From: Novosphingobium sp. G106
GTDB lineage: Bacteria; Pseudomonadota; Alphaproteobacteria; Sphingomonadales; Sphingomonadaceae
Assembly: GCF_019075875.1 (NCBI RefSeq)
Contig: NZ_JAHOOZ010000001.1
Span: 3,534,001-3,598,000 of the forward strand
Reading direction: 5' to 3'
Length of the DNA: 64,000 bases
Part shown: positions 10,271-49,071 of the stretch, piece by piece
Layout of the letters: each line of letters starts with the position of its first letter
Numbering within the stretch: position 1 is the stretch's first letter
The notes under the pieces: generated by a model
Database searches by the model: none
Told to the model about the DNA's origin: nothing
Seen by the model: the letters and a program-made list of their open reading frames with translations, nothing else
Position numbers and translations under genes: made by a program

Positions 10271-11699
10271 GATCGTGCCCCATGGCGTGGTGTAGGATCG
10301 CGGGCGTGGCCACGTCGATCTCCGGCTAAGCCGGATTGATCAGGCTGCCATGCTTGGCAACGTGATGATGGCATTGTCGCTCAATCCCGCGACGCTCTCA
10401 AGGCTCATGTAGCGGCAGCGCTGGACCGCCCATTCGTCGTTCTGTTCCAGGAGGATAGCGCCGACGAGGCGGGTTATCGCTTCATCGTTGGGGAAGATTC
10501 CGACGACATCGGTCCGCCGCTTGATCTCACCGTTGAGGCGTTCGATGGGGTTGTTGCTGTGAAGCTTGGTGCGATGCTGCGGCGGGAAGGTCATGTAGGC
10601 CAGGACGTCCTCTTCGGCGCTGTCCATCAAGGCAGAGAGCTTGGGGACCGAGGGACGAAGCTGGTCTGCAACTGAGCGCCATTGAAGCTTTGCGGCCTCA
10701 GGTGTCTCCTGCGCAAAGGCCGTGGCGATGAACGCCGATACGACCCGGCGCCCGCTCTTTCCGGCATGCGCCAGGGCATTGCGCATGAAGTGGACGCGGC
10801 AGCGCTGCCAGGTTGCGCTGAACACCTTGGCAATGGACGCCTTGATGCCCTCATGGGCATCGGAGATCACGAGCTTCACGCCGCGCAGGCCTCGGCGAGC
10901 CAGGCTACGCAGGAAGTCGGTCCAGAAGGTCTCGGCTTCGGAATGGCCGATCGCCATGCCGAGCACTTCGCGGCGACCGTCACTGTTGACGCCGACGGCG
11001 ATGATGACGGCGACCGACACAATCCGGCCTGCTCGCCGGACCTTGATGTAAGTCGCATCCATCCAGACGTATGGCCAATCGCCCTCGATGGGCCGCTCGA
11101 GGAAGGCTTTCACGCGCCCGTCGATTTCTCCGCAGAGCCGGCTTACCTGGCTCTTCGAGATGCCGCTCATGCCCATGGCCTTGACAAGATCATCGACCGA
11201 TCGCGTCGAGATTCCCTGGATGTACGCTTCCTGGATGACAGCGGTCAGCGCCTTCTCGGCCATCCGCCGGGGTTCCAGAAATCCGGGGGAAGTAACTGCC
11301 TTTGCGCAGCTTGGGGATGCGCAGCTCGACCGTGCCCGCCCGGGTCTCCCAGTCGCGATCCCGGTAGCCATTGCGCTGGGCCAGGCGCTCGACGTCCTTC
11401 TCGCCGTAAGCGGCCCCGGTCAGGCCGCCGACCTCCATCTCCATTAGTCGCCGCGCGGCAAAGCCGATCATATCGCGCAGAAAATCCGCATCCGGGCTCT
11501 TTCCCACCAGCGCCTGCAGGTCCATCATGTCTTCGGTCATCGGAACGTCCTCGTTCAAGTTGAGTGTTGCAACCCAACCTTATCCGAAGATCTCCGATGA
11601 CCACCCGCGAACCTGACCGGCCGCTACAGCGCTATATGGAAAGCGCGCGTCCGGTCAGCTTCGCTACCCTCGAGCTACACCACCATCCGGGGCACGACC
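10271..11699 (-). mobile_element. IS256 family insertion sequence, 1429 bp, complete ends
   Basis: The element is bounded by imperfect terminal inverted repeats of 25 bases at 10271-10295 and 11675-11699 (19 of 25 match; shared cores TCGTGCCCC and GTGGTGTAG). It is flanked by the direct repeat GACTGATG on both sides. Its single gene is an IS256-type (Mutator-like) transposase on the minus strand, carrying a one-base frameshift. Matched target duplications with no sequence drift indicate a recent insertion into an intergenic region. Confidence 0.9.
10340..11540 (-). pseudogene. IS256 family transposase, frameshifted
   Basis: Two overlapping frames together give one full transposase. The N-terminal part (from ATG at 11540, GAGGACG upstream) reads to SYFP. 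The remainder continues in another frame from [13 protein letters not shown] to the stop at 10340. The break falls on a run of five G at 11285-11289 (five C on the coding strand); four would restore the frame. DDE residues are visible: Asp in WMDATYIKV, Asp in VISDAHEG, Glu in [11 protein letters not shown]. The enzyme would cut and paste the element, but with this frame it should be inactive unless ribosomal slippage or a sequencing error explains the break. Confidence 0.88.
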
Positions 11700-11707
11700 G
11701 ACTGATG
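11700..11707. repeat. Target-site duplication, right copy
   Basis: GACTGATG, identical to the copy at 10263-10270 and directly adjoining the right inverted repeat. Confidence 0.88.
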
Positions 11708-12016
11708 CAAAGATCGCCTGATGGACCGCGCCGTACGACCCAAAATGATACAGATGTAGTTCGGAGGACATCGCGCACCGGCAACGCACAAGCAACACAG
11801 TCGCCTAGGCCAACCGATAAAAATCCCTAATTTTCTGTAACTTGGAAAGAACAGAGGCCATCTGCCTCGGCAGCCGACCAGCTTGCCCTGTATGGTCGCG
11901 AAACGCCCCAGCGATCAGCAAGACAACGCCAGTTCAGCGAGATTGGTTTTTATCAATTGGCCTTCAAGCAAGGCCCATGCCAACGTCAGGTGATGGGTTC
12001 TCGGGAGCAAGTCTAC

Positions 12017-12235
12017 ATGATCCGTAAGTTGCGCGACGCTGGCCGGATCACCGTTCCGGCGAAAAATGGTAGTCGACTGCTTACTGCCAACCAGGCCGAA
12101 GCCGTAAATGTTCAGGACGCACAAGGACGCTTCGACCCGGAGGCCTGGACGGCAGTCTTGGAAGAGCAGCGGCTTTGCATCGCCGCGGCAGCCGGAGTGG
12201 ATCCGTCAAAGGTCCGATTTCACATCGGTCATTGA
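12017..12235 (+). CDS. Hypothetical small protein
   Basis: A 72-residue frame (MIRKLRDAGRITVPAKNG, ending KVRFHIGH). Composition is that of a small soluble alpha/beta protein. Upstream in-frame ATG codons at 11957 and 11993 are possible starts; CGGGAG about ten bases before 12017 favours the shorter form. Its last seven bases overlap the end of the convergent histidine kinase gene. No family recognised. Confidence 0.45.
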   Translation: MIRKLRDAGRITVPAKNGSRLLTANQAEAVNVQDAQGRFDPEAWTAVLEEQRLCIAAAAGVDPSKVRFHIGH

Positions 12236-13611
12236 AACCATTTAGCGAAGAAACCGGCCAGCCGTGATGACGGCGGTTTCTCGAACTCGGACGGTTCGCC
12301 CAGTTTCGGCAATCTTATCAAAATCCGTAGGCCAGGCTCGGCATTTTCAATCGACACCTCTCCGCCATGAGCGCGCGCGGCCGCAGCAACGAGGCTGAGG
12401 CCCAGCCCGTTCCCTGGCGTCGTACGGCTGGTTTCTGCACGAAAGAACCGTTGCAGAAGTTGCTTGGCGTCCGCTTCGGAAACGCCCGGACCGTTGTCTT
12501 CCACCGAAAGCATGGCTCGAGAACCCTCCGTCGCCAGCGCGAGCCGGATCGCCGTCCCGGGCGGCGTATGGATGCGCGCATTGTCGAGCAGATTGGCCGC
12601 GAGCTGGGTCAATAGCCCATAGTTTCCCATGACGACGATGTCCGGCTCGATTTCCCATTCGATAGTATCGCCCGCGTCGGTCAATGGGGGTTCGAAGCTT
12701 TCCGCCACTTCGCTCATCAGCGCGCTCAGATCGACAGGCTTGAAGCTCCGCTCGACATTCCCGCCCTCGACCTCAGCGATGCGCAGGATCGCGGCGAACA
12801 ACTCCAGCATCTCGTCGCCGATATCGAGCACGCGCTGTTCTGCGCCATCCACCTGGCCGAGGCGGTCGGTCTGGCAGAGCAGACGGATCAGCGGTTTGCG
12901 CAAGTCATGGGCAATATCGCTCGACACTTGCTGCAGGTTCTCCATGAGGCCCGCAATCCGCTCCAGCATGAGATTGAATGTGCGCCCCGCCGCATCGAAT
13001 TCGTCACCGGGATCTCGCACCGGAACCCGCCCCACGATATCGCCCGAGATGATGGCGGAAGCCGTGGCGGTGATCAGGTCCAATCTTCGGCGCAAATAGC
13101 TTGCCAGCAGCAGGCAGCCAACCGCGCTCCCCAGCAGCAAGGCGACGAGCGCAATGACGAAGATTTTGGCGACCATCCACCGAGTTTCTTCGATTCCGCT
13201 CGAATCGCCCGCGACGACCAGCGTGTAGCCCAGCTCGAGATTGGTCGTGAGCGCCCGCCCGACATGCTCATCTCCGTCAGCATCGCGAATGCGGAGCGAT
13301 GCAAGCCCGGTCGGCGGAGGCGATAGGTCGAGCTTGCCGGCTATCTTGTTGCCGCTGGGATCGAACAGGGCATAATTCAGACCATTGCCTGGCCCTTCCT
13401 CCCGCGAACGGATTTCCCGCAGCAGTTCCGCCCGGGTTGGCTCATGGGACAGGTCGGCGACTTCCTGGACGATTTCCCGATCCTGGAAGCTGTGCATCTT
13501 GGCGTCCGCCAAAAAGAACACGGCCAGCGCCAATACCAGGAGGCCCCAGCCTGCCACGGCAGCAGTCGTGATGGAAATGCGATAGGCGGCGCTCGATCTA
13601 AGCTTGGGCAT
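12229..13611 (-). CDS. Sensor histidine kinase (HAMP, HisKA, HATPase)
   Basis: A 460-residue inner-membrane kinase. TM1 lies near residues 12-35 and TM2 near 150-175, flanking a periplasmic sensor part of about 110 residues. A HAMP linker follows, then the phospho-acceptor box SSDIAHDLRKPL. The ATPase domain has NLLDNARIHTPPG (N box), VEDNGPGVSE (G1) and GNGLGLSLVAAAARAHGG (G2). The start at 13611 overlaps the regulator gene by 14 bases, whereas longer forms would overlap far more. With the adjacent response regulator it forms an OmpR-type two-component system of the QseC/PmrB-like group. The signal is unknown. Confidence 0.93.
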   Translation of the reverse strand: MPKLRSSAAYRISITTAAVAGWGLLVLALAVFFLADAKMHSFQDREIVQEVADLSHEPTRAELLREIRSREEGPGNGLNYALFDPSGNKIAGKLDLSPPPTGLASLRIRDADGDEHVGRALTTNLELGYTLVVAGDSSGIEETRWMVAKIFVIALVALLLGSAVGCLLLASYLRRRLDLITATASAIISGDIVGRVPVRDPGDEFDAAGRTFNLMLERIAGLMENLQQVSSDIAHDLRKPLIRLLCQTDRLGQVDGAEQRVLDIGDEMLELFAAILRIAEVEGGNVERSFKPVDLSALMSEVAESFEPPLTDAGDTIEWEIEPDIVVMGNYGLLTQLAANLLDNARIHTPPGTAIRLALATEGSRAMLSVEDNGPGVSEADAKQLLQRFFRAETSRTTPGNGLGLSLVAAAARAHGGEVSIENAEPGLRILIRLPKLGEPSEFEKPPSSRLAGFFAKWFQ

Positions 13612-14278
13612 CGACCCGCATTCTATAGCCCTGACCGATGACCGTCTCAATCGGATCATCGGCAAAGCCGTCGCGCAGCTTCGCACGCAAGCGGCTCAGA
13701 TGGCTCTCGACCACATTGGTCTTCGGATCGAAGTCATAACCCCAGACCTGCTCCAGAAACATCTTCCGCGTGACCGGCCTGCCGGCATTGCGCATCAGCA
13801 GCTCGAGTAGCGTGAACTCGCGATGCTGCAACGTTACCTGTCTTCCGTCGCGGGTGACCCTGCGCTTGATCAGATCGATCGCGATGTCACCGATTTCGAT
13901 ACGCGTCGCTTCACCGCGTGCCGCGCGCCGCAGCAGGGCGTTCATGCGCGCGACGAGCTCCGAAATATCGAAAGGCTTGACCAAATAGTCATCCGCTCCC
14001 GCGTCCAGCCCATCGACGCGATCCGAAATACCACCCATGGCGGTCAGAACCAGAACCGGCGTTTCGATTTCGGCGGATCGAAGGCCGCGAAGCACGTCCA
14101 GGCCTTCTCGCTTCGGCATCATGCGATCGAGCACGATCATATCGAACCGTTCCGTAGTGCCGAACTGCAGCGCTTCCTCGCCATTCGACACGCGGACAAC
14201 TCGGTGACCGAGCTTCTCCAGGCCGCGTTCTACGTAGCCGGCTGCCTCGTCATCGTCTTCAGCAAGAAGGACACGCAC
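13598..14278 (-). CDS. OmpR/PhoB family response regulator
   Basis: A 226-residue regulator. The receiver domain has the acidic pair EDDD near the N-terminus, phospho-acceptor Asp51 (IVLDRMMP), Thr/Ser near 79 and Lys101 in DYLVKPF. The C-terminal winged helix (trans_reg_C) contains LLELLMRNAGRPVTR and VVESHLSRLRAKL. It is translationally coupled to the kinase downstream. The targets are not evident; neither flanking gene is an obvious regulon member. Confidence 0.94.
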   Translation of the reverse strand: MRVLLAEDDDEAAGYVERGLEKLGHRVVRVSNGEEALQFGTTERFDMIVLDRMMPKREGLDVLRGLRSAEIETPVLVLTAMGGISDRVDGLDAGADDYLVKPFDISELVARMNALLRRAARGEATRIEIGDIAIDLIKRRVTRDGRQVTLQHREFTLLELLMRNAGRPVTRKMFLEQVWGYDFDPKTNVVESHLSRLRAKLRDGFADDPIETVIGQGYRMRVDAQA

Positions 14279-14399
14279 CTTCGCCCCCTCGGCATTGCAG
14301 GGATTAACTCGATTGAATTTAGTCTATCGAGTATTTCTAATTTTTAAAGGGCGTACGTTAATCTCTCTTCGGGATAACGATCTTTGACTGCCATTCGGA

Positions 14400-14798
14400 T
14401 CAGTACTCGATCAAGATCGTGATATTCTTCGGTCCCGTGCCCGATGCGTCGGCAATCATCTGCTTTGCCCGAGCTATGACTTCGGACAGGGCTTCGACCG
14501 GCGCTGACGTCAAGCCCTCAGTCGTGGGCTGAATGGAAGAACCCTCTCGATCTTCAGCTTCCGCCTCGGCCGGCTTCGCGTGCATTTCCCCGTTGGTCAT
14601 ACGTGGCTGCAATTGCTGCGGCGACACATCCAATGCGCGGGCGAGCGGCGTCATCAACCTCGGCCGAGGCCTGCTGTCGCCCTTTTCCCATTTCCAGATG
14701 GTGACCGATGACACGCCGACGAGACTCGCCAACGCACGCACCGACAGCCCCTGCGCCTCGCGAAGCGTCCGGAGTTGATGCGAAAAGTCTTGCTGCAT
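14400..14798 (-). CDS. XRE family transcriptional regulator
   Basis: A 132-residue protein with a Cro/C1-type helix-turn-helix in its first 65 residues: LRTLREAQGLSVRALASLVG, SSVTIWKWEKG, then LARALDVSPQQL. The C-terminal 65 residues are rich in Ala, Glu and Thr and appear to be a flexible linker plus a short helix; no sensor or peptidase domain is visible. The start at 14798 follows GGAGAAGAAGG; the frame is open further upstream to 14957 but without a better site. It is an orphan regulator next to the two-component system. Confidence 0.85.
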   Translation of the reverse strand: MQQDFSHQLRTLREAQGLSVRALASLVGVSSVTIWKWEKGDSRPRPRLMTPLARALDVSPQQLQPRMTNGEMHAKPAEAEAEDREGSSIQPTTEGLTSAPVEALSEVIARAKQMIADASGTGPKNITILIEY

Positions 14799-14957
14799 CT
14801 CAACCAACCTTCTTCTCCTGAGAAATGCGCATTGAAGGAAGGTTCCCGCCGTTGAACCCAAACGATGCAAGTTTGGCAATTTCCTGTCAACTAATGCTTT
14901 GCAGCTCATAAACCATATGATGGACAGAATTAGCGAATTTTCGCTTACACGGCTCAC

Positions 14958-15361
14958 GAATGTCCCAAAATGGCGGAATTATCGAGTAGAAAGTGCCTCG
15001 TACGAAGCACAGAGCGTCCGCCAAGCGGACAATGCGCATGATGTTTGACCGCCGAGAGACGGTAGCGATAACTCTGCGAAGGGGAAGCGGGCGGAAGAGC
15101 AACTCGCGACGAGGCCTGCGCGATTGCCTTGCACGATTTCCGCAATGGAACCGCCACGGTAAGAAGGGGAGAGAAAATACTCGCCCGGCAATTCTGCACA
15201 AAGTGGGAAGCAATGGGTCCGACGCCTGCCGCGCAGCGTTGATGATCGCAGCAGCCGAGCCGTTCACACCGTCGGCGGGGCGCTGTTCCCGGTCCACCGG
15301 AATTCGCTGCACAGCCGGCTTTTCCGTCAGCGCGGCTTCTCGAAGCTCATGTAGCGTCCGG
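14958..15361. other. Intergenic stretch without a supported gene
   Basis: Several overlapping frames occur on both strands here, none with a good ribosome site or recognisable domain. The longest (minus strand, 14887-15411) runs through the terminator hairpin at 15372-15393 and is therefore not credible as a gene. Confidence 0.4.
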
Positions 15362-15393: not shown

Positions 15394-15511
15394 AATCCAA
15401 AGGGGTATCAATCATTTGGACCTGGCTCCGTTTCCGGAACCGAGCTTGGAGTTAGCACGCTCAATCCCTGCCCCGTAGTTGGTTTTTCCCAACGAAAATG
15501 GCACCCGCATG

Positions 15512-28046: not shown

Positions 28047-29447
28047 ATGGGAAAACTTAACGCACAGTTCTTGTCATTCGCTATCGGACGCAGTCTGCGG
28101 GTTTTTGCGGCGGCCTTGAAATGCAGCCGGGCTGCGATTAGCCCTTTGACCGCGCTGATGCTCGTTCCGATCTCCGGCGCGATCGCGTATTCGATGGAGG
28201 TTGGTAGCTGGGAATATCTTCAGCGTTCGTTGCAGAACGCGGCAGACAGCGCGGCTCTTGCCGCGGCAACTAACGCCCGGACCAGCGGTGTTAGCAACTA
28301 TGCCGTCGAAGGCGCCGCGGCGGCGAGGAAATTTGGTTTCATAACCGCCGGCAACACGACAGTCAGGATTGACCCTCCGGCTCCGGCCGCGGGCGGCGTT
28401 ACCTGCCCACCGGGATCGCCAACGAATGCGTCCGGCGTGGCAATTTGTTATGCGGCCGCGATCTCCACGAAATTGCCTCTAACATTCTCTAGGATAATCG
28501 GTTTCAACGGTGACGTGGCATACGGTTCCGGCCGCGGCCAAACAATCACGGCCTATGCCATAGCTTCCACGGCAGGCGGGGGAATTCGCTACACCCAGGG
28601 GTGCTATTATGCGATGTCGACCGACCCCTCTGCCCTCCAAGGCAATGGAATTCCGTTTGCTAATCTGACTGGATGTAGCGTGTTTTCGAACGGGGGAATC
28701 GATTGCACCGGCCATGACATGGGCGCGGACTATGCGATCTCCTCAAGCGCTACAGCGCGGCCGGACTGCGCCAGCACTCCGGCCGGGGACTTGTACGGGG
28801 CCACACTTCCACCGGTCCCTTACGCGTCGGATCCCTATGTGACCAACGCGAACAATGCCATCGCCAACAGCTGTAACACTACGGCAACCAGCGGCAGTCA
28901 ATCTGCGACACTACTCGTTTACTGCGGCAATGTGACGCTAACTAATGACTTGACACTGACGTCGGCGAATACGGTGATCGTTATTAAGAACGGTACGTTG
29001 GACTTGAACAACTACAAGCTGAGCACCGCCTCAAATGCATCTGCAACGATCATATTTTCCGGTAGCGTCGCGCCGTTTGGCGATAAGAACATGAAGGGGA
29101 CGATTGACATTCAGGCGCCGCCTCCGCCTACCGGCTCAAATCCGGCTTCTCCCTGGCAGGGTGTTGCAATGTATCGCCCCCCGGGTGGTTCAAATGTGTC
29201 GGCCACTCTTGCCGGTAGCAAAGCGACCTGGAAGATCACAGGCGCGGTGTATTTCCCGCAAGTTAATGTCACGATTGATGGGGTGGTAAACAAGTCCGCG
29301 AATGGCGCGACGTGTTTCATATTGTATGGGAACATAATCACGGTGAACGGCAATGGTACGATCTTGAACAGCACGAGCGGGTGCACTACGGCCGGGGCTC
29401 CGCCGCCATTAGCGGCCGCCGGCACCCGGGCTAAGCTGGTGAAATGA
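28047..29447 (+). CDS. TadG-like pilus-associated protein, no VWA domain
   Basis: A 466-residue protein with a class-III-like N-terminus. A short basic leader is followed by the hydrophobic stretch AAISPLTALMLVPISGAIAY and SWEYLQRSLQNAADSAALAAATNA, the DUF2134/TadG_N signature. No von Willebrand A domain follows. Instead the C-terminal 250 residues are Asn, Thr and Gly rich with several spaced Cys and short beta-strand repeats (TVIVIKNGTLDLNNYKL, ATIIFSG, GAVYFPQVNVTIDG), suggesting a beta-helix. It opens the divergent minor-pilin operon, and its stop overlaps the next gene by four bases. It may be a tip adhesin or surface component. Confidence 0.82.
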   Translation: MGKLNAQFLSFAIGRSLRVFAAALKCSRAAISPLTALMLVPISGAIAYSMEVGSWEYLQRSLQNAADSAALAAATNARTSGVSNYAVEGAAAARKFGFITAGNTTVRIDPPAPAAGGVTCPPGSPTNASGVAICYAAAISTKLPLTFSRIIGFNGDVAYGSGRGQTITAYAIASTAGGGIRYTQGCYYAMSTDPSALQGNGIPFANLTGCSVFSNGGIDCTGHDMGADYAISSSATARPDCASTPAGDLYGATLPPVPYASDPYVTNANNAIANSCNTTATSGSQSATLLVYCGNVTLTNDLTLTSANTVIVIKNGTLDLNNYKLSTASNASATIIFSGSVAPFGDKNMKGTIDIQAPPPPTGSNPASPWQGVAMYRPPGGSNVSATLAGSKATWKITGAVYFPQVNVTIDGVVNKSANGATCFILYGNIITVNGNGTILNSTSGCTTAGAPPPLAAAGTRAKLVK

Positions 29448-30021
29448 TGAAGGTTCCACCCGTAGACATCGGACCTCCCAAAGGCGGATCGTTGTGGAGG
29501 GACTGCCACGCCGTGGCGGCGGTAGAGATGGCCCTTGTGCTGCCAATCCTTGCATTCATCGTGCTCAACATCACTGACCTCGCGATCTATGCCTACTCGC
29601 GTATGCAGGTTGATTTGGCTGCGCAGGCAGCGGTTGGTGCGGCGCGAGCGCTTTGCAATACCTCAGCTACCAACCGGCAACTGCCGGCTAAGCAGAATTG
29701 CACCGGAGTCGACGCGGCAATCGTCGCTGCGGCTCAAACCACTTCGCTTGGCAGTTCGGTCAGTCTCACGGGTACGAGCGGAGACCATTCAACGGAAGGC
29801 TACTACTGCGCCGATAACACGTCGACACTGCAGTTGGTTGCGGCATATAATGCCACTCCCCGGCCACTTGTACCGGTACCTACACGGGTAGCACGGTAGC
29901 GCCAGGCGACTACATCTCCGTGACTGCGACCTATACCTACACTCCGGTGTTCCCTGGGGCGACAGTAGGAAGTCTGCTGTCTGGTGTGATTACTCGAACT
30001 GCATGGCTGGGCCTCAATTGA
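29444..30021 (+). pseudogene. TadE-like minor pilin, frameshifted near C-terminus
   Basis: The N-terminal part is a standard TadE minor pilin: VAAVEMALVLPILAFIVLNI is the prepilin-like hydrophobic segment with Glu at +5, followed by AYSRMQVDLAAQAAVGAAR. The annotated frame stops at 29899, but another frame continues without interruption as TCTGTYTGSTVAPGDYISVT to TRTAWLGLN and a stop at 30019-30021. One extra C in the run CCCC at 29858-29861 would join them. The natural end overlaps the next TadE gene by 19 bases, which supports the longer product. So either a one-base deletion truncates it or the sequence has an error. Confidence 0.82.
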
Positions 30022-30489: not shown

Positions 30490-31329
30490 ATGGTCAGCCT
30501 CGATGAAGCTCACGAACGCCTTCAGCTCGTGACATTTCGCACTGCCGAGCTTTCTCGCGATGTGTCCCAGTGGTTGCACCGGCGTGGCCAGAGGCTGGTT
30601 TCTTTTCTCGATATGGGCATGGAGACTGTGATCGTCGGGTGGATTGGCCTGACTGTTTTGCTTGCCCTAGCAAAGATTGCGAATGCGAACGCATGCTTTT
30701 CAAGTTCCTGCGACGTTCTGATCACGCTGCTGCCGTACCTGCTCATCGCCTTTGCGCCGATCGCCGGATACCGGGTCGCGACGGGGGCCTTCCCGCGCGG
30801 GCTGCTGGCTGGACAGCCGGATGTGCGCTTCTGTCTCTATGGCACCTGGAAACGGCTCAATCCTGTGGCAGCTCGGCAGAGCATGGCGTTCGGGCCCGCT
30901 GGCCTGATGGCCTCGCTCATCCTGGGAATTCTGCTCAACGTACCATTTCGCAGCTTTGAATTGCTTCTGTCGCTTCCTGTCATTGGCCCCGGGGATGCGG
31001 GCTGGGCGCGGGGCCTGATGGCGGTGATGACTCTCGACGTCGTTGTGATGAATTTCTTCTACATGGTGTGCTTCGTGATGGCGCTACGCTCGGTGCCGCT
31101 GTTTCCACGAATGCTGCTGTTTGCCTGGGGCATAGATCTGTCCATGCAATTTGCCATCGCGCACTATGCCGCTACCGCGCAGGCTATGCCGCCGGCGGTG
31201 GCGCATGCGCTACAGGTCGTGCTCCTAGGCAACATCAAGAAGGTATTAATTAGCGCCGTGGTATGGCTTCCGTATCTGATCTTGTCCGAGCGGGTGAATA
31301 TCACGTTTCGACAGCGGGTGCGCGCTTAG
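30490..31329 (+). CDS. DUF2569-like membrane protein
   Basis: A 279-residue protein with five to six membrane segments (TVIVGWIGLTVLLALAKI, ITLLPYLLIAFAPIAGY, FGPAGLMASLILGILLNV, and others). The C-terminal signature AVVWLPYLILSERVNITF matches the end of DUF2569 proteins. Function unknown. GCGAGG lies just upstream of the ATG. Its last 29 bases overlap the convergent GT87 gene. Its position between the minor-pilin operon and the glycan genes leaves open which it serves. Confidence 0.7.
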   Translation: MVSLDEAHERLQLVTFRTAELSRDVSQWLHRRGQRLVSFLDMGMETVIVGWIGLTVLLALAKIANANACFSSSCDVLITLLPYLLIAFAPIAGYRVATGAFPRGLLAGQPDVRFCLYGTWKRLNPVAARQSMAFGPAGLMASLILGILLNVPFRSFELLLSLPVIGPGDAGWARGLMAVMTLDVVVMNFFYMVCFVMALRSVPLFPRMLLFAWGIDLSMQFAIAHYAATAQAMPPAVAHALQVVLLGNIKKVLISAVVWLPYLILSERVNITFRQRVRA

Positions 31330-32486
31330 GCACGGCGTTCAGGTGGCGCCAGATCCACCAGACTGTCACTGCCGAAACCATCGACATGGGATTGACGCCG
31401 AGGGGCAAGGCCATCGCGCGCGCGAGCAACGGCGATACGTAGAGCAGCAGCAGCCAAGTGCGGCTCCAGCCCGGAAAGCCGCGTGCACGTTCGGTCTCGA
31501 CCAGCCAGCACAATGGCATGACGAGAAATGGCAGATCGTAGCTGAACAAGTAGGGCGTCGCGAGCGGGGTCGCTACGAACAACAAGGCCAGCTTGCCTTC
31601 CATTGGACCAGGCCGGGCCCAGGCGCGCCAGGTTAACACGGCCATCGCCAGTGTGACGACAGCTTGTGTCGCCAGCCCAGCTTGGCTTGAGACTGCGACG
31701 CGCACCATCGCATAGACTGTTACCTGGCGCAGGAAGAATACGTCGCTGCTCGTCGTCAGAAGCAGATTGCTGGCCGCCCAGGACTTGGGATAGGCTAGCA
31801 TCGTTGCGGTCCCGAACACCAGCCAGGACAGGGCGAGCAGGCCCAAGACCGAAACAGCGGCGCCGGCGACTGCGCGCCAGTGTCGCCCCGCTAGGAAGGC
31901 CACGGGAAACAGCAGCGCAAGATGCGGCTTAATGACCAGCGCGCCCACGAACAGACCGGCGACGAACGGTCGCTTGTCGAGGAGCCCGGCGACCGCGGCC
32001 TGGATCGCGCTGGTCAAAAAGCCCGTCTGAGCATGCCAGGCGGCGACGAGAGCGCCCGGAAACGCGGCGATTGGCCACGAGAGCTCGGCATGAAGCCGGC
32101 GCGTCGCGATAAACCACACCGCATAGGTCACGACGATCCAGACGACCCAAGCTTCCGGAAAGCCTAGCAGCCCAAGTGGCCAGATGCCCAGCAGCAGGGG
32201 AGGTGGGTTGACGAAGGCGAAGACGTCCTGTCGTCCCACCGTCGCCTGGACCCGGGAGAGCAGGGCCGGATCGTACGCCGCCGCGGCCTTGCCAGCGACG
32301 GCCAGTTTGGCGGCGGACCAGAATGCGAGAAAGTCGGTTCCAAGGCCCCCCCATGGCCTGGTGAAAGAACCAGGCGAGGCTTACCAGCGAGGCGAAAGCG
32401 AGGATGCAGGCATAAGCAACTGCGCGATCGCGACCGAGCCAAGCCAATTGCAGAAAAGCGATCGTTCCTCGGGGAAATCCGTTCAT
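31301..32486 (-). pseudogene. GT87 (DUF2029) membrane glycosyltransferase, frameshifted
   Basis: The start at 32486 (MNGFPRGTIAFLQLAW) leads into TM1 and reaches HQAMGG. The protein then continues in another frame as GLGTDFLAFWSAAKLAV and PALLSRVQATVGRQDVFAF to the stop at 31301. The join falls on seven C at 32346-32352; six would keep one frame. The whole product of about 395 residues has about ten membrane segments and the GT87 pattern (LGTDF acidic loop, FVNPPPLLLG). Such enzymes use polyprenyl-phosphate sugars on the outer side of the inner membrane. As written, the protein is cut at about residue 65. Confidence 0.82.
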
Positions 32487-32740
32487 GGCTCTCTTTACTG
32501 CAGGCTCGGTTTCCCGGCAATTATTCGGCAATCGGAGTTCCAGTCCCGGACCCGTAAGGTCCTAGGATGTGAGTCAGGGAGATTTATAAGGCACACGAGA
32601 ATGCGACGGCGTTAATCCCCGATCAAGGGCATCATTCGTGCAAAAGCTGCATATCTCTACCACAAATTGGGGCGAATCAGCCGAGGGCGACATTCCCCTT
32701 ATCGACCCAATCCGGCGCTCCGGATGAAGGAATTATTCGC

Positions 32741-34456
32741 ATGAGCAATTTCACTTCCGACAGATCGCCCGATCTCGGCGGGATGAGGCTGATGCTGTTA
32801 ATTTCTAAGTCCATAATTATATCTCTCATCATCATCGTGGTTATAAGTGGAGATAACGAGTCAATTTCCAATATGATGAGAAACGACTTGACGCTAATAA
32901 GTGCTCAGATAATACTTTTAGGGTTATGCATATTAGATTTTCGAAAGATTGATCGAGAATTAAATTTGTCAATCTATCAAATTATCCTGATATCGAGTTT
33001 GATCATCGTCTTGGCATACGCTGGACACCGGTTGGTGTTGGCCGGATATAACTGTGTTCGCGATGAGCAAATGGCAGATTTTGACGCGTTTATTTATGGG
33101 CATGGGCATTTGGCGTGGCCATTGCCGTTAGCTTGGCAAAATGACGCCTCGGCATTGAATCTGCAATTCATGTTGCCCGTTTCGAAGCCGGTCGCCTGGG
33201 TGTCGAGCTATCTGCCCATGAACGCTGGGTTTCGGGCACTTGCCGGGAGCGTTGCCGATCCCGCGTTGTCTGGGCCAATATTCGCAGGGCTCTCCTTCCC
33301 CATGTTGTGGGCCTGTGGGCGCCGTATTTGGCCCGATGACAACGAGAAAGTGGTTGTCGCGTTGCTCTTGCTGGCCTGCTCGGGGCAAGTGCTCATGATG
33401 GGCATGACCGCATACGCGATGCCGGCTTATCTGTTTTTCAATCTGCTGTGGCTGTGGTTGTTTTTGAATAACCGAGTCCGCACCGATTTGGCCGCGCTTC
33501 TCGTCGGGTTTGTCGCAACGGGCCTGCATCAACCGCTGTTTCATCCGTTGTTTGCGGTGCCGTTCGTGTTCCTTTTGCTCATCGAGCGCCGGTGGCCCCG
33601 GCTGGCGCTTTTTGTTTTTGGCTATGCCATCATCTCAACCTTTTGGCTCGCTTGGCCCCATATCATCCACGGATTGGTCACCGGGCCTCAATCGACCACG
33701 GCAAGTGGCGGGGTCGATTACCAATCACGATTGGTCGGCGCATTGAGTCAAAATAACCGCAACGTGACGCTCATGGCTGAGAACATCCTGCGCTTCTTCG
33801 CCTGGCAGCACATACTGCTGCTACCGCTTATGCTCGCGAGCGCGAAAACCATACGCCGGGATCGCCTGGCCGGTGCGCTCGCAATGGGGTTCGTGCTCCC
33901 GATTATCGTGATGGCCGTCATCCTGCCTTGGCAGGGGTTTGGATTTGGCTATCGCTATCTGCACGGGGTTATCGGCAACGCCGTGCTGCTTGGCGCCTAC
34001 GGATGGCGGCATCTGGCAGGCCTGCACGATCAGTTGAGGCCATATTTGCTGCGCGCATCGGCGGCAGGTGTATTTGTTATATTACCGATGCAGGCGTGGC
34101 TTGCGCACGAAACCTATCGGCCATTTGCGCAGCTTAGCGAGCAGGTTGATGCAAGCGGAGTGGATTACGTCATAATGGGCAGGACCAATCTGGCAGAGGC
34201 GAGCAGTCTCGTGACCAATAGACCCGACCTTTCCAATCGCCCAATTCGACTTTACGCCGATGACATAGGCAACGTCGGCGCATTCGCGAAGCGCATCTGC
34301 CACGGCAGGACGCTTGTTGCCCTGACTACGGATTCATTTTTTAAGCCAGCAGCTCTTTACTTCAACGTGAGGCCGTTGCCTGATTCTAGCTCCCATTCGA
34401 GCGCCTTAGCCGACCTATTGAAGGTCAATGGTTGCAAGGTCAGTTCGCTTCGATAG
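32741..34456 (+). CDS. Polytopic membrane protein, GT-C-like
   Basis: A 571-residue protein with about twelve membrane segments and GAAGGA before the ATG. After two N-terminal helices a periplasmic loop carries RDEQMADFDAFIYGHGHLAW, whose Asp/Glu pair is in the position used by GT-C sugar transferases. The C-terminal 110 residues are soluble (DYVIMGRTNLAEA, NRPDLSNRPIRLYADD). It is a clear paralogue of the frameshifted gene at 45726-47505 (same RDEQM, GLHQPLFHPLF, LPWQG, GYRY and NRPDLSNRPIRL motifs). The first 100 codons are much more AT-rich than the rest. A role in adding a sugar to a lipid-linked glycan is likely but unproven. Confidence 0.7.
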   Translation: MSNFTSDRSPDLGGMRLMLLISKSIIISLIIIVVISGDNESISNMMRNDLTLISAQIILLGLCILDFRKIDRELNLSIYQIILISSLIIVLAYAGHRLVLAGYNCVRDEQMADFDAFIYGHGHLAWPLPLAWQNDASALNLQFMLPVSKPVAWVSSYLPMNAGFRALAGSVADPALSGPIFAGLSFPMLWACGRRIWPDDNEKVVVALLLLACSGQVLMMGMTAYAMPAYLFFNLLWLWLFLNNRVRTDLAALLVGFVATGLHQPLFHPLFAVPFVFLLLIERRWPRLALFVFGYAIISTFWLAWPHIIHGLVTGPQSTTASGGVDYQSRLVGALSQNNRNVTLMAENILRFFAWQHILLLPLMLASAKTIRRDRLAGALAMGFVLPIIVMAVILPWQGFGFGYRYLHGVIGNAVLLGAYGWRHLAGLHDQLRPYLLRASAAGVFVILPMQAWLAHETYRPFAQLSEQVDASGVDYVIMGRTNLAEASSLVTNRPDLSNRPIRLYADDIGNVGAFAKRICHGRTLVALTTDSFFKPAALYFNVRPLPDSSSHSSALADLLKVNGCKVSSLR

Positions 34457-36090: not shown

Positions 36091-37219
36091 TTGCGCCTTC
36101 TAACAGTCACCCACTTTTTTGAGGCTCATGGCGGCGGCATCGAACGCGTTGCAGGACAACTTTGCCGCGAGTTCGTAACGCAAGGTCAGGAGGCAATCTG
36201 GGCCGCCAGCGACAGAGATGTGCTCCCGTGTGATGGAATCATTCCATTGCCGCTGCGGTGTATTGACCCTGCAGAGCGGCTGAGCGGTCTGCCTATGCCG
36301 CTGCCCAGTTTCGGCGCCGCCCGGAATCTGGCCGACGAAATCGGGAAGTGCGATGCGGTAATAATCCACGATGCCCTCTACGTGACTTCGATCCTCGCGA
36401 TGGTGATCGCCATACGACGAGGCAAGCGGACAGTCCTGATTCAGCACATTTCAAAAATACCGTTCTCCTCACGGTTGCTGAGGTTAACGATGGCATTAGC
36501 GAATCAACTAGTGACGCGGCTGATGATGCGGGCGGCAGATGAGCTCGTCTTTATCAGCGATACCGTGCGCGAGGACCTGCTCGGCTCGAAGCCCTGGCGG
36601 GACTATCGCCTGATTTTCAACGGTGTCGATCCCGCGATTTTCCACCCGATCTCAGGAGACAACGGGACGTCTCGCGCTCACGTTCAATGGCCACCGGGGA
36701 AGACCCGGATTCTTTTTGTGGGACGCTATGTCGAAAAGAAGGGATTGGCGGTTATTCGAGCACTGGCCGAGCTAAGGTCCGATTTGTCATTTCTATTAGC
36801 CGGCAGCGGGCCGTTCCGGCCTAGCGATTGGGGGGTTGGCTAATGTTCATGATCTCGGCTCCCGGTCGCAGAGCGAACTTGCCGCACTCTATCGCAGCGC
36901 TGATCTGTTGCTGTTGCCTAGCGTCGGGGAAGGATATCCGTTGGTCATACAGGAAGCCATGGCGTGCGGCTTGCCTGTGGTCTGTGGGCAGCCCGCAGAT
37001 CGGGCCGATCCGAATGCTGCCCGATGGCTGAAGGGTGTGCACATCGATCTCGGCGACCGCCATGGTTCGGCGTTCCGCTGTAGTTCCGCGATTGACGAGG
37101 TCGGACTGTCTGAGACGGAGCGTGCGGAAATGGCCGCCTATGCGGCGGCGACCTACCTATGGGGAGCCCTGGCCAGGTCGGTGATTACATGTGCGCGAGG
37201 ATTTGATGGAAAAGGCTAG
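36091..37219 (+). pseudogene. GT4 glycosyltransferase, frameshifted
   Basis: The frame starts at a TTG (36091; MRLLTVTHFFEAHGGGIERV) and gives the N-terminal GT-B domain and the start of the second domain (ILFVGRYVEKKGL, LLAGSGPF) before stopping at 36843. The other frame continues LANVHDLGSRSQSELAALY, LLLLPSVGEGYPLVIQEAMA and CGLPVV to 37219. One base less in the GGGGGG run at 36830-36835 makes a single 376-residue GT4 enzyme with the E-x7-E motif (EGYPLVIQE) intact. Its 3' end overlaps the next GT2 by 14 bases. Family members transfer a sugar in the cytoplasm to a lipid-linked glycan. Confidence 0.85.
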
Positions 37220-41232: not shown

Positions 41233-42564
41233 TTACTTGCGCGGACCGAATAAGAACCGGATCCACATCTGCTTTCCTTGCCTTGCGTCGCTGCAGCACA
41301 CCGAAATTAACCGGCTCGCTGATCCCAATGGGTTGAGTGCAAGCACCATTTTTCGGCTTGAACCGCGATAGTTGACGCTCAGGTAGGTCATGCCAATGCC
41401 AGCCACAAAATAGGCGACGACGCTGGCCCAGGCTGCGCCCACTCCGCCGAAGCGAGGTACCAAAAGAAAATTTAGTCCGATGTTCGTAATTGCGCCAGTT
41501 CCGGTCAACAGCGCGGAGTTCCAATAACTTCCCGTAGCTGTCAGTTCGCTGGCTATGGCATAGAAAAGAAAATAGAATGGCGTGCCAAGCAGGAGGACCC
41601 ACAGCATCGGCATTGACCCTGCGTAAGCGCTGCCGAACACCGGTTCTAGGAACAACGCGGCGGCTACGCCTAGCGCGATGGCTGCGACCCAGCCGGAAAG
41701 CGCAAATAGATCGAACACCGCCTGCATATGGGGATCTAGTCCGCCCGGCCCGCTTTGGAAGTTGCGAACCATGGCGCCCAACAGTGTCGACTGCAGGACG
41801 GCGGGCGCGATATTTCCGATTTCGACGATCCTGGCGGCAACAGCGTAACGACCAAGCTCTTCCTCATTAGACAGTTGTCCCAGAAAAACCTGATCAATTC
41901 GCAAAAATATCATGGTAGAAAAAACAGCGATCATTAGCGGTAGCGCTTCAGCCAAGGTTTTCTTCAACATGTCCAGTTTGATAGTCTGGAACGCAGCCCC
42001 GCCAATGAGAACGAAGCTCGCTATGGCAGCTACGCCAAGAAAAATACTTTCCATTGATCGTAGCATGACGAAATATCGCGGGTATGGGGTAAAAACGAAT
42101 ACGAGCAGCGACGCGATCACAAACGCGATGGAAGCGATCATGCGTGGAATCGCGAACTGCTTCATTTGTTCGCGGCCCTTGAGATAGGCCACGACCAGAT
42201 CAAAGGGAGCTGCGAGCAGAATTGGGAGTGCGACGATCAGTAGGATTGGAGTTACGCCTGCCGGATTGTTGCTGAGCAGAAAGGCTACGACGGTTATGGC
42301 TGCGGCAAGAACTGTGGTTATGGCGCTTGCGGCGAGTGAGACATATATGCTGCCCTTACCTGCTTCATCCGATGCCGCTTCGCGCATCACATGCGCTTCC
42401 ATTCCGAACCGAGCGAGGGGCGATAGGATGGTCACAAAGCTCAAGACATAGGCATATGCACCAAATCCTTCGGGCCCGAGCTTGCGCGCGACGATCACGG
42501 TAAACGCCAGGCCGATGATCATCCGCAGCGCTTCCTCGATCGAAAGCCAGCCAAGATTCAACAA
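41233..42564 (-). CDS. Polysaccharide flippase, Wzx/MATE-like
   Basis: A membrane protein of about 443 residues with twelve predicted helices. It starts KLLNLGWLSIEEALRMIIGL, with VIVARKLGPEGFGAYAYVLS, the Polysacc_synt signature. These proteins flip undecaprenyl-linked oligosaccharide units across the inner membrane. The start codon is uncertain: the listed TTG is preceded by another TTG and a CTG with GGGAGG seven bases upstream of it; no ATG fits. Its 5' end overlaps the upstream GT2 frame by about 200 bases, which is abnormal. Confidence 0.82.
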   Translation of the reverse strand: MLNLGWLSIEEALRMIIGLAFTVIVARKLGPEGFGAYAYVLSFVTILSPLARFGMEAHVMREAASDEAGKGSIYVSLAASAITTVLAAAITVVAFLLSNNPAGVTPILLIVALPILLAAPFDLVVAYLKGREQMKQFAIPRMIASIAFVIASLLVFVFTPYPRYFVMLRSMESIFLGVAAIASFVLIGGAAFQTIKLDMLKKTLAEALPLMIAVFSTMIFLRIDQVFLGQLSNEEELGRYAVAARIVEIGNIAPAVLQSTLLGAMVRNFQSGPGGLDPHMQAVFDLFALSGWVAAIALGVAAALFLEPVFGSAYAGSMPMLWVLLLGTPFYFLFYAIASELTATGSYWNSALLTGTGAITNIGLNFLLVPRFGGVGAAWASVVAYFVAGIGMTYLSVNYRGSSRKMVLALNPLGSASRLISVCCSDARQGKQMWIRFLFGPRK

Positions 42565-43432
42565 TTTTGTAATCAGTTTGCGTCCTCCCGGAGTAGAATG
42601 GCGATAGCCCGTCGCTGACCGCTATTCGTTCAGTAGACTCGCCGGCGATCGCCTCCGGCAGCCGATCATAAACGGAAGGCGGTAACGATCGAACTAAGTC
42701 ACCACCAAAGAGTGACCCACGTTTTAACCAGTAGCGGACCAATACGTCGAAAGATGATTGTCCAAGAATTCTATTATTTACGCGACTATCTTCAAGCGCG
42801 GCACGAACCTGACCCGATTTCGATATGGCGTTGGGCTCAATAGTGTTGACGCTAAGCGTCTTTCGTATTTTCTTCATCCGAGCGCCGGCTCGGTGCATGG
42901 CTGCAATCGCGGCGTAGTCTGCGGCAATCTTGTAAGTAAGGTCAAACGGGTGCTGAAGGTGCGTCTCGCGCCGCGTGAAAAGAGACTGATGGGAAAACGG
43001 TATCCGCCTATACCGGTCAGTTCCGAGATCAATAGCCGACCTGAAAATAGTTAGGCCATTTGCCAATTCATAAGCTGCGTCTCCGTACACGGCATCCACG
43101 TCGTCGCCAAATTCGGTGGCCACGTTGTCCAGCACGGTCTCTTCCGCGAAGCGGTCGCCGGCGTTCAGGAACTGCACCACCTCGCCCTTGGCCTGACGAA
43201 GCCCCTTGTTCATCGCGTCATAAACGCCCCGATCCGGTTCGGAGATAACCGTATCCCGGCCTTCGACCAGAAACGGCTGAATGACTTCGAGCGTGCGATC
43301 CGAAGAACCGCCGTCGACCACGATCCACTCGTAGTCGCGGAAGGTCTGGCACCGAAGGGACGCGGCGGTCGCCTCGACGACCGCTTCGGCATTGTAGACG
43401 GCGGAAACGATCGAAAAGAATGGCGGCTTCAT
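42365..43432 (-). CDS. GT2 family glycosyltransferase, WcaA-like
   Basis: The first 285 residues are a normal GT-A enzyme: FSIVSAVYNAEAVVEATAAS, WIVVDGGSSDRTLEV, GEVVQFLNAGDRFAEE, and a loop with FSHQSLFTRRE, as in WcaE-type enzymes. The last about 70 residues, from roughly 42,580 downwards, are read out of frame from the flippase gene and look like random sequence. A stop (TGA, in GCAAACTGA) lies in a neighbouring frame at the expected end, so a one-base indel may have removed the natural stop. Real extent is therefore likely 42,570-43,432. Confidence 0.82.
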   Translation of the reverse strand: MKPPFFSIVSAVYNAEAVVEATAASLRCQTFRDYEWIVVDGGSSDRTLEVIQPFLVEGRDTVISEPDRGVYDAMNKGLRQAKGEVVQFLNAGDRFAEETVLDNVATEFGDDVDAVYGDAAYELANGLTIFRSAIDLGTDRYRRIPFSHQSLFTRRETHLQHPFDLTYKIAADYAAIAAMHRAGARMKKIRKTLSVNTIEPNAISKSGQVRAALEDSRVNNRILGQSSFDVLVRYWLKRGSLFGGDLVRSLPPSVYDRLPEAIAGESTERIAVSDGLSPFYSGRTQTDYKIVESWLAFDRGSAADDHRPGVYRDRRAQARARRIWCICLCLELCDHPIAPRSVRNGSACDARSGIG

Positions 43433-43468: not shown

Positions 43469-44425
43469 TCAGTCTTCGCGCAAAGCGCCTTGGTTCTCGA
43501 GAAACCAGTGGTAGGTCTGGAGGATACCTTGTTCGAGCGGAATGCTCGCGCGCCAGCCCATCGCAGCTAGTCGCGACACGTCCAGCAGTTTGCGGGGCGC
43601 GCCCTCTGGGCGGGCGGGATCGAAGGCGATCCGTCCCTTGAAGCCCGTCGCCTCGGCGATGAGTTGCGCGAGCGATGCGATCGAGACCTCCTGCCCGGAG
43701 CCGACATTGATGTGGCTCAGCATCGGCTGCGTGTTGGCCTGGTAGATGTCATGCGGCAAATCCATCACGAAGAGCGATGCGTCAGCCATGTCGCCGACAT
43801 GCAGAAATTCGCGCCTGGGCGTTCCGCTGCCCCAGATCACCACTTCGTCGAACCCCTGCGTCACGGCCTCGTGGAAGCGCCGGATCAGCGCCGGGAGCAC
43901 GTGCGAGTGCTCGGGATGGAAATTGTCGCGCGGTCCATAGAGATTGGCGGGCATGACGCTGCGGTAATCGGTGCCATGCTGCCGATTGTAGCTTTCGCAC
44001 AGCTTGATGCCGGCGATCTTGGCGATCGCGTAGGGTTCGTTGGTCGGCTCGAGCACGCCCGTGAGCAGCGCATCTTCGTGCATCGGCTGCGCTGCCGCGC
44101 GGGGATAGATGCAGGATGAGCCCAAAAACAGCAGGCGCCGCACGCCGGCGCGGAAAGACTGATGGATGACATTGCATTCCAATGTCAGATTTTGATAGAT
44201 AAAATCTGCCGGCCTGCTGTCGTTGGCATGGATGCCCCCGACTTTCGCGGCAGCCAGGATGACGGCGTCGGGGCGTTGTTCCGCCAGGAAGTCTCGGACG
44301 GCGGCCTGATCCGTAAGATCGAGTTCCTGGCGACTGCGCGTGATGGTTGCAACGCCTCGAGCATGTAGCATGCGCAGGATGGCGGAACCCACCATACCCT
44401 GGTGGCCGGCAACGAATATGCTCAT
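43469..44425 (-). CDS. fcl: GDP-L-fucose synthase
   Basis: A 318-residue extended SDR. The cofactor motif is GHQGMVGSA, the active-site region has GSSCIYP, and the catalytic Tyr-Lys is in [30 protein letters not shown] and [12 protein letters not shown] match GDP-4-keto-6-deoxymannose 3,5-epimerase/4-reductase. It makes GDP-L-fucose from the Gmd product. Nine bases separate it from the gmd stop, so both are one operon. It could also serve a colitose route, as ColC is a related enzyme. Confidence 0.95.
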
Positions 44426-44434
44426 CGCGTGGCC

Positions 44435-45557
44435 TCAATCCTCATTTGCGACAGGCAGGTCATAGCCGTGGTTCCGCAGCAGCGCGTAGCGCTTCGCTGT
44501 CTGCAAATCTTCCGCCACCATTTCGGCGCACATCTGTCTGGCCGTAAATTCCGGAGACCAGCCGAGTGCCTGCCTCGCCTTGGTGGCGTCGCCCAAGAGC
44601 GTATCGACTTCTGCCGGACGAAAATAGCGGGGATCGATCCGCAAGATGACATCGCCGGCCTTCACGGCCGGCGCAACATCGTCTGCAACAGTTTCGACGA
44701 TACCTTTTTCTTCCAGACCTTCGCCTTCGAAGCGAAGCGTGATGCCAAGCTCCTGGGCTGACCAAATGATGAATTCGCGAACCGAGTATTGCTGGCCGCT
44801 CGCAATCACGAAATCGTCGGGAACGTCTTGCTGCAGGATCAACCACTGCATCCGAACATAGTCCTTGGCGTGACCCCAATCGCGCAAGGCATTGAGATTG
44901 CCCATATAGAGGCATTGTTCGAGACCCTGGCTAATGTTGGCTAGGCCTCGCGTGATCTTGCGTGTGACGAATGTCTCACCCCGACGTGGGCTCTCGTGAT
45001 TGAAGAGGATGCCATTGCAGGCATGCATTCCGTAGGCTTCCCGATAGTTGACTGTAATCCAGTATGCGTAAAGCTTGGCGACGGCATAGGGCGAGCGTGG
45101 GTAAAAAGGGCGTTGTTTCGCGTTGGGGGATTTCCTGGACGAGGCCATAGAGCTCTGAAGTCGACGCCTGGAAGAAACGGGTCTTTTTCTCCAGGCCGAG
45201 GAACCGGATGGCCTCGAGCAAACGCAAGGTTCCGATGGCATCGACTTCGGCCGTGTATTCCGGGACTTCAAAGCTGACAGCGACATGGCTTTGCGCACCG
45301 AGATTATAAACCTCGTCGGGGCGAACCTCGTTGATTATACGGGTCAGGTTCGATGTATCGGTAAGATCGCCATAATGAAGTTTGAGCATGGCATTCGCCG
45401 CGTGGGGATCCTGGTAGATGTGATCGATCCGCTGCGTGTTGAAGGACGATGCCCGCCGTTTGATCCCATGGACCTCATAGCCTTTGGTAAGAAGGAATTC
45501 TGCTAGGTAAGATCCGTCCTGGCCAGTAACGCCGGTGATCAGCGCGCGTCTTGTCAT
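44435..45557 (-). pseudogene. gmd: GDP-mannose 4,6-dehydratase, frameshifted
   Basis: The enzyme starts [20 protein letters not shown] at 45557 (GGAAGG upstream) and keeps its motifs to QRETTPF: STSELYG and YGDLTDTSN. The sequence [14 protein letters not shown], with the catalytic Tyr-Lys, then follows in another frame and runs to the stop at 44435. One A too many in the run AAAAA at 45103-45107 (TTTTT on the coding strand) breaks it; four would give a normal 373-residue Gmd. The product supplies both fucose and, with the ColD-like enzyme, 3,6-dideoxy sugars. As written, those pathways would be blocked. Confidence 0.92.
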
Positions 45558-45725
45558 GCGCTTGTGCTTCCTTCCAATTTGGCTGCCGATCAGGCGGTCG
45601 GCGTCGCCAGCAATGCTATTTCTGGTCAAACGTGACGCGTTACGACACACACGCCGCAGTCAATCATTCTAGACGCTAATTCATGAAAAATCTTCAAATC
45701 GTCGCAACGCCCCGACCCAACGACC

Positions 45726-47505
45726 TCACTGAAGCAACATAACATGGCAGCCCCCACGCTCTAGGCTTGCCTCGATCAACGGCATCCGCTCTCGGGCCTC
45801 AATAAAAGTCATCGGGCTGTAGTGGGCGATCACCGGCTGCAGGAATTGCTCGGTCGACAAGGCTACCCGCACCTTTGGGCGACAAATCCTGCGTGAAAAT
45901 CCGTCGATATCCTCGATCTTATGCCCCAGCAGGCGGATCGGCCGGTTGGACAGGTCGGGGCGATTGAGCACGAGATCGCTGGCAGTGTGGTAGTCGTCGG
46001 TGCCGACGATGGCATAGTCAGCGCCGCTGGCGTCGATCTTGGCGCTCGCTCGCGCCGATGGTGCATAGTAGCCATGCGCCATCCAGGCCTGGAGCGGCAG
46101 CAGAACTAAGGTGGTGGCCGCGGTGGCGCGCCGGAACACGACTCGCAGATGCGGGCGCCAGAACGCTGCCACTCGTTGCCAGCCATAACCGCCGAGTAGC
46201 GCTGCATTGCCCAGCACCCCATGGACGTAGCGATAGCCAAAGCCGTTGCCTTGCCAAGGCAGGATGAGTGCCATCACCAATATCGGCAGCACAAAGCTCA
46301 GCCCGATCGCGCCGGCGATCCGATCGGTTCGGGCTACGAACCAACTTGCTATCAGCAAAGGCAGCAAGAGTACGTGTTGCCATGTGACAAAGCGCAAAAG
46401 GTTTTCCGACATGTAGATGACACGCCCGTCACTGCGGGCTAGGGTGGTAGTTAACATGGACAGGTAATGAGCGATTCCGGTAGGTGCGGTGACAGCGGCA
46501 GCATCGGTCGCAGACGTGCCGGGATAGGCGCTTAACGTGTAAGTTTGCACAATCTGGGGCCAGGCCAGCCAAAAGACGGCGACGGCCGCATAGCCCGCTA
46601 AAAACAAGAGCAGTCGGGTCCAACAGCGCTCGCGCAAAAGCAGGAGCAGGAACGGGGCGATGAAGAGCGGATGGAACAGCGGCTGATGCAACCCGGTTGC
46701 GACCAAGCCGGCCAAGACGGCGGCAACGTCGGCGACCCTGCGATCGGCTATAAACAGGCGAAGCCACAGCAGGTTGAAGAAAAGGTGCGCGGGCATCGCG
46801 AACGCCGTCATTCCGGCGAAGATGAACTGACCCGATAGGGCAAGCAGCAAGAGTGCCACGACCGAGGTTTCTCGGTCTTCAGGCCAGAGACGACGTGCGC
46901 AACTCCAAAGCAGAAGCAATGAGAGAGCATTAAACACGGGGGGCCGTCAGGTCCCTGCCGCCGAACCACCCCATCACTGCCCGGAGTGCCGCATTCATCG
47001 GCAAATAGGCGGATACCCAGGCGCCCTTTACCCCGGGAGAAATGAACAGCAGATTCAACGGGCCGGCATTGGCCCGCCACTCCGGCGGCAGGGGCCAGGC
47101 GAGGAATCCATGGGCGAAAATCGTCGCATCGAAATTGGCCATCTGCTCGTCACGGCTCAGATCGTAGCTCAGCAGCAACCAACGATGGCCGAGATAGCAT
47201 ATTGTGAAGATCGCGAGAGACATGAGGCGCACGTCAATAGTTGTGAGCGATCTGGTAGAACCTTGCGCTTTGTTTCCGATTACAGATAATAATGCCAAAA
47301 ATAATATCGCAGCGATCAGCCAGATATCTTGATACCAAAATTGCTGAAAATTGATCGGATCGATCGTGAAAATGGATCCTAATACGAAATCAATAGCAAG
47401 CCCGATCGAAAATACGATCATGATCTTCACTGTGTCTGGCGCGCGCGCGTGCTCTGGGGTCGGGGCTCCGATGCTTGCATTCCCTTCATCGGCTTCACTG
47501 CTCAT
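45726..47505 (-). pseudogene. Polytopic GT-C-like membrane protein, frameshifted paralogue
   Basis: The N-terminal frame (ATG 47505, MSSEADEGNASI) gives the first helices and the loop RDEQMANFDATIFAHGFLAW, then FGGRDLTA. The remainder, VFNALSLLLLWSCARRLWP to the stop at 45726, is in a second frame. Five instead of six G at 46938-46943 would join them into about 592 residues. The intact paralogue at 32741-34456 confirms the join: its sequence runs straight from the same acidic loop into LWACGRRIWP. The start overlaps the stop of the upstream gene by four bases. A sugar transferase or polymerase role on the periplasmic side is possible. Confidence 0.8.
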
Positions 47506-49071
47506 TGCGGCGCCTGCCCTGCACGGGGGCCTCCGCGACAATCGCCCCAAATGGCGATCTGTGCGCTGCGGCCGATTTGATAGGCTGGCTCGACGTCGAC
47601 TATCCGGCAATTGCTCTCGACATAAGCTTCGACGAGGCGTCGTGTTTCGAGGTTGGCGGGCAAATTGCTCGGCGTTCTCGCCATGGCCACGACACCAGGT
47701 CTGTTGCGCAAGATCCTGCGCATTTCCAGGAGCGTATCATACTGGCTCACGTTTCGCTCGATCCAGTGATTGAGATGGTGGGGGGAACGAAAGTGGCGTG
47801 AGAGGACGCTTCCCGGACAGAGCGTAGAGTTGGGGCGGCCCGTCATAGACCAGCAGTCCCCCACCCAAGTCATGCTGTTCGATCGCTGTCGTCAACTTTT
47901 TCATCGACTGAATCGATTGTTCGCGTTCGCCTCGGGCGGTCGGATTGAACAGAACCATCGAAAAAGCAACCAGCAGCGTCGACAAAAACACGCCGACATC
48001 CCGGCGCCCCAAAATCGGGCTCGAAGCTATTGTGAGGGGAACGAGAAGCGGAAGCGCGTAGTGAGTATAGAAGTTGGGAATCGAAAGGACACCCATCGTC
48101 GCTGCAGCGATCCAGAGGCCGATGAACCAGTTTGCCTTCCGCTCGAGGGCTTCGCCGTTCGCGATCAGCAAGCCAGCGAAAGACAACGCCAAAACAGGAT
48201 ATAGGCGGGCAAACATGACCAGCGAGTTGTGTGCCGTCGTTGCCAGCGGCTGGCCGAGCTTTGCCACGTTAGATGTCACCATAGCGTGCCACCAGGCGTG
48301 CCAGTGGCGGTTCCAGCAGTAGGCTGTCCCGATTGCCAAAAAGGGCAGGGCTCCCAGGCCGGCACAGGCCAGGATCGTCGCTCCTGTCCGCACGGCCGGT
48401 GCCCCGCTACGAGCCATGCAGTAGATCACGAACAAACCGAAGAACGAGGCTTCGAACAGCGCGGTCTGCTTGACCGTGATCGCAAGACCGCACAGCGCCA
48501 TGGCTGCGAACGTGCGCCAAGTCGGCTGGCCTTTTTCCAGTTCCGGCCACGCGTTGAGCAGTAACAGCGCCCCGCTCGCGATGAACAGGTTGTAGAAGAC
48601 CGGGGTCTGCCCGCCAAAGCCCTCGAGTGGCCCCAGCATGGCGAGATAGCAAGCGCCCGCCAGCAGTCCGCCCTGGATCCCCGCCCAGCGCCGGGCGATG
48701 CAGTTGATGACCATCGCCGTGGAGCTGGCGAATAGCCATGCGACGATCTGGTAGGCCAGGACCGAGGTCGAGATGCCGGCTATGAAGTAATAGATCAGGA
48801 AAAGACCAAGCGGCTTGCGGTCCCAGATGTCGACATAGGGGATCGAGCCGTGGTGCATCTCCTGCCCCACGAGAAAATAGAACGCTTCGTCGACATGGAG
48901 ATTCGGATCGCCAAAGGTGAAGGCGCGCAAGAGCAGCCCCGTCAGGAGTAGTAGCGCGAACTGTTTCCAGCTTTGGAGAAGGTGGCGTTGGCACGATCCC
49001 GGCGTGTCGGGAAAGTTTTCGAGCCACCGAACGACAACGCTGAAAGCCGTCATTTGCCCAACAGACGGCAT
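47502..49071 (-). pseudogene. GT39/PMT_2-like membrane glycosyltransferase, frameshifted
   Basis: The main frame (47737-49071) has the GT-C acidic loop LHVDEAFYFLVGQEMHHGSI and WDRKPLG, and about ten helices (VVRW... FALLLLTGLLLRAF, YQIVAWLFASSTAMVINC). It ends in random residues after PLTPLSFPP. The neighbouring frame continues HHLNHWIERNVSQYDTLLEM and VESNCRIVDVEPAYQIGR to a stop at 47502. Five rather than six G at 47780-47785 would join them. The start (49071 or 49053) has only a weak ribosome site. It probably adds a sugar or phospholipid-linked unit at the outer face of the inner membrane. Confidence 0.82.

Follow-up and report, generated by a model that had tools for sequence, protein, structure and literature searches.

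Phase-variable genes of surface structures that carry mononucleotide tracts are a known system. Homopolymer indel errors, for their part, fragment genes in long-read bacterial assemblies, as two reports describe (PMC12007338, PMC8306402), and a survey of frame transitions expects isolated, homologue-confirmed transitions to be sequencing errors (PMC3711429). In the window analysed here, a stretch of 64,000 nucleotides from Novosphingobium sp. G106, seven genes change reading frame at short mononucleotide runs (Table 1). We find that these breaks are very probably homopolymer-length errors in the deposited assembly, belonging to a contig-wide pattern unrelated to glycan synthesis.

Table 1. Genes of the window with a change of reading frame at a mononucleotide run
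Gene	Position in window	Strand	Frame change
IS256/Mutator-type transposase, two pieces	10340..11558	-	G5 run 11285-11289
TadE-like pilus assembly gene	29444..30018	+	C4 run 29858-29861, -1 sense
GT87 glycosyltransferase	31301..32516	-	C7 run 32346-32352, near N-terminus
GT4 glycosyltransferase	36091..37219	+	G6 run 36830-36835
gmd, GDP-mannose 4,6-dehydratase	44435..45572	-	A5 run 45103-45107 or C5 run
GT-C-like membrane protein	45726..47610	-	G6 run 46938-46943
GT39/ArnT-like glycosyltransferase	47526..49071	-	G6 run 47780-47785

The runs have the positions and lengths reported in the initial annotation, and a frame change is located at or beside each of the seven. The protein continues in the next frame, as had been claimed: for six genes this is seen in three-frame translation, and for the GT87 gene in a minus-strand analysis together with homologue alignments. 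The sense of the breaks is likewise as previously assigned, namely +1 in six genes and -1 in the TadE-like gene. Homologues span both frames in six of the genes, and the transposase is backed by four open copies in the same genome; from this crossing by homologues it follows that the assembly text does contain genuine frame changes. The three G6 runs of the window are all located at breaks, as is its sole C7 run, and none of its four C6 runs coincides with any of the seven breaks.

The transposase element occurs five times in the genome, and both pieces of the window copy match Transposase_mut (Pfam). Over 1,429-1,430 aligned columns, the other four copies differ from the window copy by no mismatch and one gap, which lies in the run, and each has an open frame of 405 residues compared with 343 in the window copy. 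For gmd, both pieces match GDP_Man_Dehyd (Pfam) and all 19 homologous loci cross in both frames, with the alternative C5 run (G5 on the plus strand), 22 bases from the A5 run, scoring approximately equally and both runs being flagged. The two pieces of the GT4 gene match successive Pfam domains, Glyco_transf_4 in the first and Glycos_transf_1 in the second, and two of the five homologous loci (L187 and L191) cross with open frames. Pfam TadE matches the first piece only of the TadE-like gene, which is crossed in both frames by all 24 non-self homologues, and GT87 matches only the main piece of its gene, where crossing in both frames is seen for 15 of 20 homologues (the best 20 of 119 non-self matches listed). 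The GT87 gene is the mildest case, with the break some 40 codons from the N-terminus, and one of the 20 homologues tested (P0123) starts almost at the break point. The pieces of the GT-C-like and GT39/ArnT-like genes have no Pfam match; both homologous loci of the former cross in both frames, as do all 20 homologues of the latter (again the best 20 of 119 non-self matches listed), one of which carries the name ArnT family glycosyltransferase.

Several further observations concern the surroundings of these genes. Several homologues with assigned names belong to Novosphingobium. The broken GT-C-like gene has an intact paralogue of 571 residues (window 32741-34456), and the open frame of one relative (L071) is approximately 48% identical to both. 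Homologues of the TadE-like, GT87 and GT39-like genes (P0244, P0122 and P0002) are each found on a JGI contig 41,426 bases long, possibly at one related locus where all three are intact. On the minus strand, a GT2 gene and a Wzx-like gene overlap by approximately 200 bases (window 42365-42605), and the codon model shifts frame near 42605, which may mark an eighth break. The G+C content of the window (59.8%) is below that of most sampled 20 kb stretches (0.596 to 0.687), which might fit an acquired island, and an Rfam scan of the window returned nothing at the gathering cut-off.

The genome comprises one contig of 6.17 Mb and four smaller contigs, and runs were counted over 1.94 Mb of the former, a span that takes in the window. 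A codon model trained on this sequence scored, at each run of at least four bases, whether the frame is kept or changed; this run-centred test replaced a first codon-model scan that made many operon-junction calls, and junction-like calls were set apart. Non-junction-like +1 breaks were found at 46 of 4641 scorable four-base G/C runs, at 16 of 694 five-base runs (2.3%), at 23 of 106 six-base runs (22%), a further 72 of which read in frame, and at 4 of 18 runs of seven or more, compared with none at 21 A/T runs of at least six bases. The corresponding -1 breaks at G/C runs of four, five, six and at least seven bases number 81, 12, 4 and 3, and given these counts at four and five bases, the +1 rates at the two shorter lengths are within method noise. 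Among G/C runs of at least six bases there were in addition 10 junction-like calls, 161 unscorable runs and one ambiguous run. The detector is insensitive, flagging two of the six window genes that have a run of at least five bases, and false calls exist: at least one of the 23 six-base breaks, at 5092696, resembles two neighbouring genes by eye, and visual inspection of 40 pairs suggests neighbouring genes or non-coding sequence instead of breaks at this position and at 3674259, 4369437, 4369462, 4403698 and 5085904.

A scan of genome contigs yielded two relatives. Two same-genus genomes were compared over 400 kb each with their own codon models. In these, +1 breaks are present at 1 of 42 and 0 of 23 six-base G/C runs (1 of 65 together, versus 23 of 106 here), and with G/C runs pooled at six or more, insertions versus in-frame runs differ from the same-genus genomes with p = 1e-5. 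At five-base runs these genomes have 5 of 212 (2.4%) and 0 of 187 (0%), versus 2.3% here, and neither four- nor five-base G/C runs exceed the two same-genus genomes; thus, only runs of at least six bases show an excess. A repeat pair of 882 bases on contig C5 shows no substitutions, its only differences being three single-base gaps in A/T runs, while counter-evidence is provided by a pair of 1,609 bases on the main contig that is identical without gaps. A further repeat pair, in common with contig C3, was too diverged for use (96.4% identity).

Breaks also reach genes outside the glycan cluster. When ten candidate pairs drawn from the first codon-model scan were examined with Pfam, five matched a family on both sides, these being two amine oxidases, an SDR, a DsbD-like protein and an RTX/M10-type protein with a break in the -1 sense, and two (a P450 and a cytochrome c) matched on one side only. 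The remaining three were unsupported as breaks, with a weak match below the cut-off on one side (L033), no Pfam match (L008), or different families on the two sides and perhaps two genes (L015). At one locus (L030:7232-10891), two amine oxidase genes and an intervening cytochrome c-like gene are interrupted by frame changes at a G7, a G6 and a C6 run, all three within approximately 1.3 kb. In a whole-genome profile search, atpD (2-217 and 212-462), dapB (71-168 and 168-270) and fmt (2-215 and 218-305) were each found as neighbouring pieces in different frames; these are the only copies detected, with just weaker matches below the cut-off elsewhere. Similarly, the sole NrdB-family match spans nearly the whole domain and its last 73 residues are in another frame. 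A cell of this type would be expected to require all four genes, and should not tolerate their loss.

The presence of breaks of the same kind across the chromosome, including in genes expected to be needed for life, makes errors, and not a surface-sugar switch, the most likely explanation. In the deposited assembly, run lengths would have been left uncorrected, mostly with one base too many in G or C runs, and the breaks of the window would form part of a contig-wide pattern unrelated to glycan synthesis. The living strain would then carry intact genes, and base calling or the consensus of the read data may be the cause. The preference of the initial annotation for a sequencing artefact as the simpler explanation is well supported, the breaks being contig-wide, affecting unrelated and core genes and occurring at 22% of six-base G/C runs compared with 1 of 65. 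Over the 1.94 Mb of the 6.17 Mb contig that were covered, they are spread irrespective of function, and the excess of longer-run breaks over comparable genomes is observed at six-base G/C runs. Counting against assembly error is the in-frame reading of most six-base G/C runs (72 of 106). The conclusion holds for the set of genes, and single sites may include real mutations, above all TadE (C4) and gmd (A5); together with the G5 run of the transposase, the C4 run (-1) and the A5 run are outside the run class for which an excess was shown.

Very unlikely, in our judgement, is that the breaks as a whole are real mutations, fixed as pseudogenes in a high-slippage strain or by ordinary recent decay. 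Any single break could have arisen in this way, above all in the one dead transposase copy among five, in the TadE-like gene or in gmd. Against it stands the breakage of the sole detected atpD, dapB, fmt and nrdB. Loss of mutS or mutL was not found in the genome; rather, MutS and MutL are open and match above the curated cut-off, which argues against a mismatch-repair mutator.

Slippage-driven phase variation, in which replication alters the length of runs in the glycan genes and thereby switches surface glycans on and off, appears extremely improbable. We accept the placement of five of the seven genes within the glycan cluster, and the break lies at a six- or seven-base G/C run in four of those five, which speaks for such a switch. 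However, the runs are short, metabolic and core genes are broken as well, and homologues elsewhere are intact. At the sensitivity of the detector, the window yields three calls (two genes, gmd counted twice) versus 1.4 expected (P = 0.17), and its density of breaks does not clearly exceed that of the remaining contig. The breaks are neither confined to nor clearly enriched in surface genes, leaving the earlier proposal of glycan switching by slippage unsupported. We assign an equally slight probability to a mixed population with many G/C-run variants, in which slippage would be high despite open mutS and mutL, intact and broken core genes would coexist, and any glycan switching would be part of genome-wide run-length noise. 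Programmed frameshifting at G/C runs, whether ribosomal or transcriptional, would restore the proteins and has the clean next-frame continuation at each site in its favour, but merits almost no credence, as the six-base-run breaks, counted together with the junction-like calls, are distributed over codon phases 0, 1 and 2 as 4, 10 and 15 and over C and G runs as 14 and 15, with neither a fixed codon phase nor a run that is always shifted, four transposase copies are open without it, and the three phases together with the 72 of 106 scorable six-base runs read in frame argue against it.

Recognizing run-length errors in the assembly as the probable source of the breaks guards against glycan phase variation being claimed wrongly, and any pseudogene call or gene count made from this assembly, even for core genes, should be backed by reads. 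Our literature search found nothing on point concerning phase variation or run errors in the group of the source organism. The breaks resemble mononucleotide-tract phase-variable surface genes in that the length of a run changes by one base inside glycosyltransferase genes, but are distinct in that the runs are short, core genes are hit and the breaks extend beyond surface genes. A likeness is also seen to long-read homopolymer errors as presented in the two reports (PMC12007338, PMC8306402), with one-base changes at runs, many genes affected, including core genes, and homologues that are intact. In contrast to the nanopore case described in PMC12007338, where deletions are tied to homopolymers, the changes here are mostly insertions at G/C runs, and since this excess of insertions does not fit the nanopore profile given there, we name no sequencing platform for what are, in all probability, errors of run length in the assembly.
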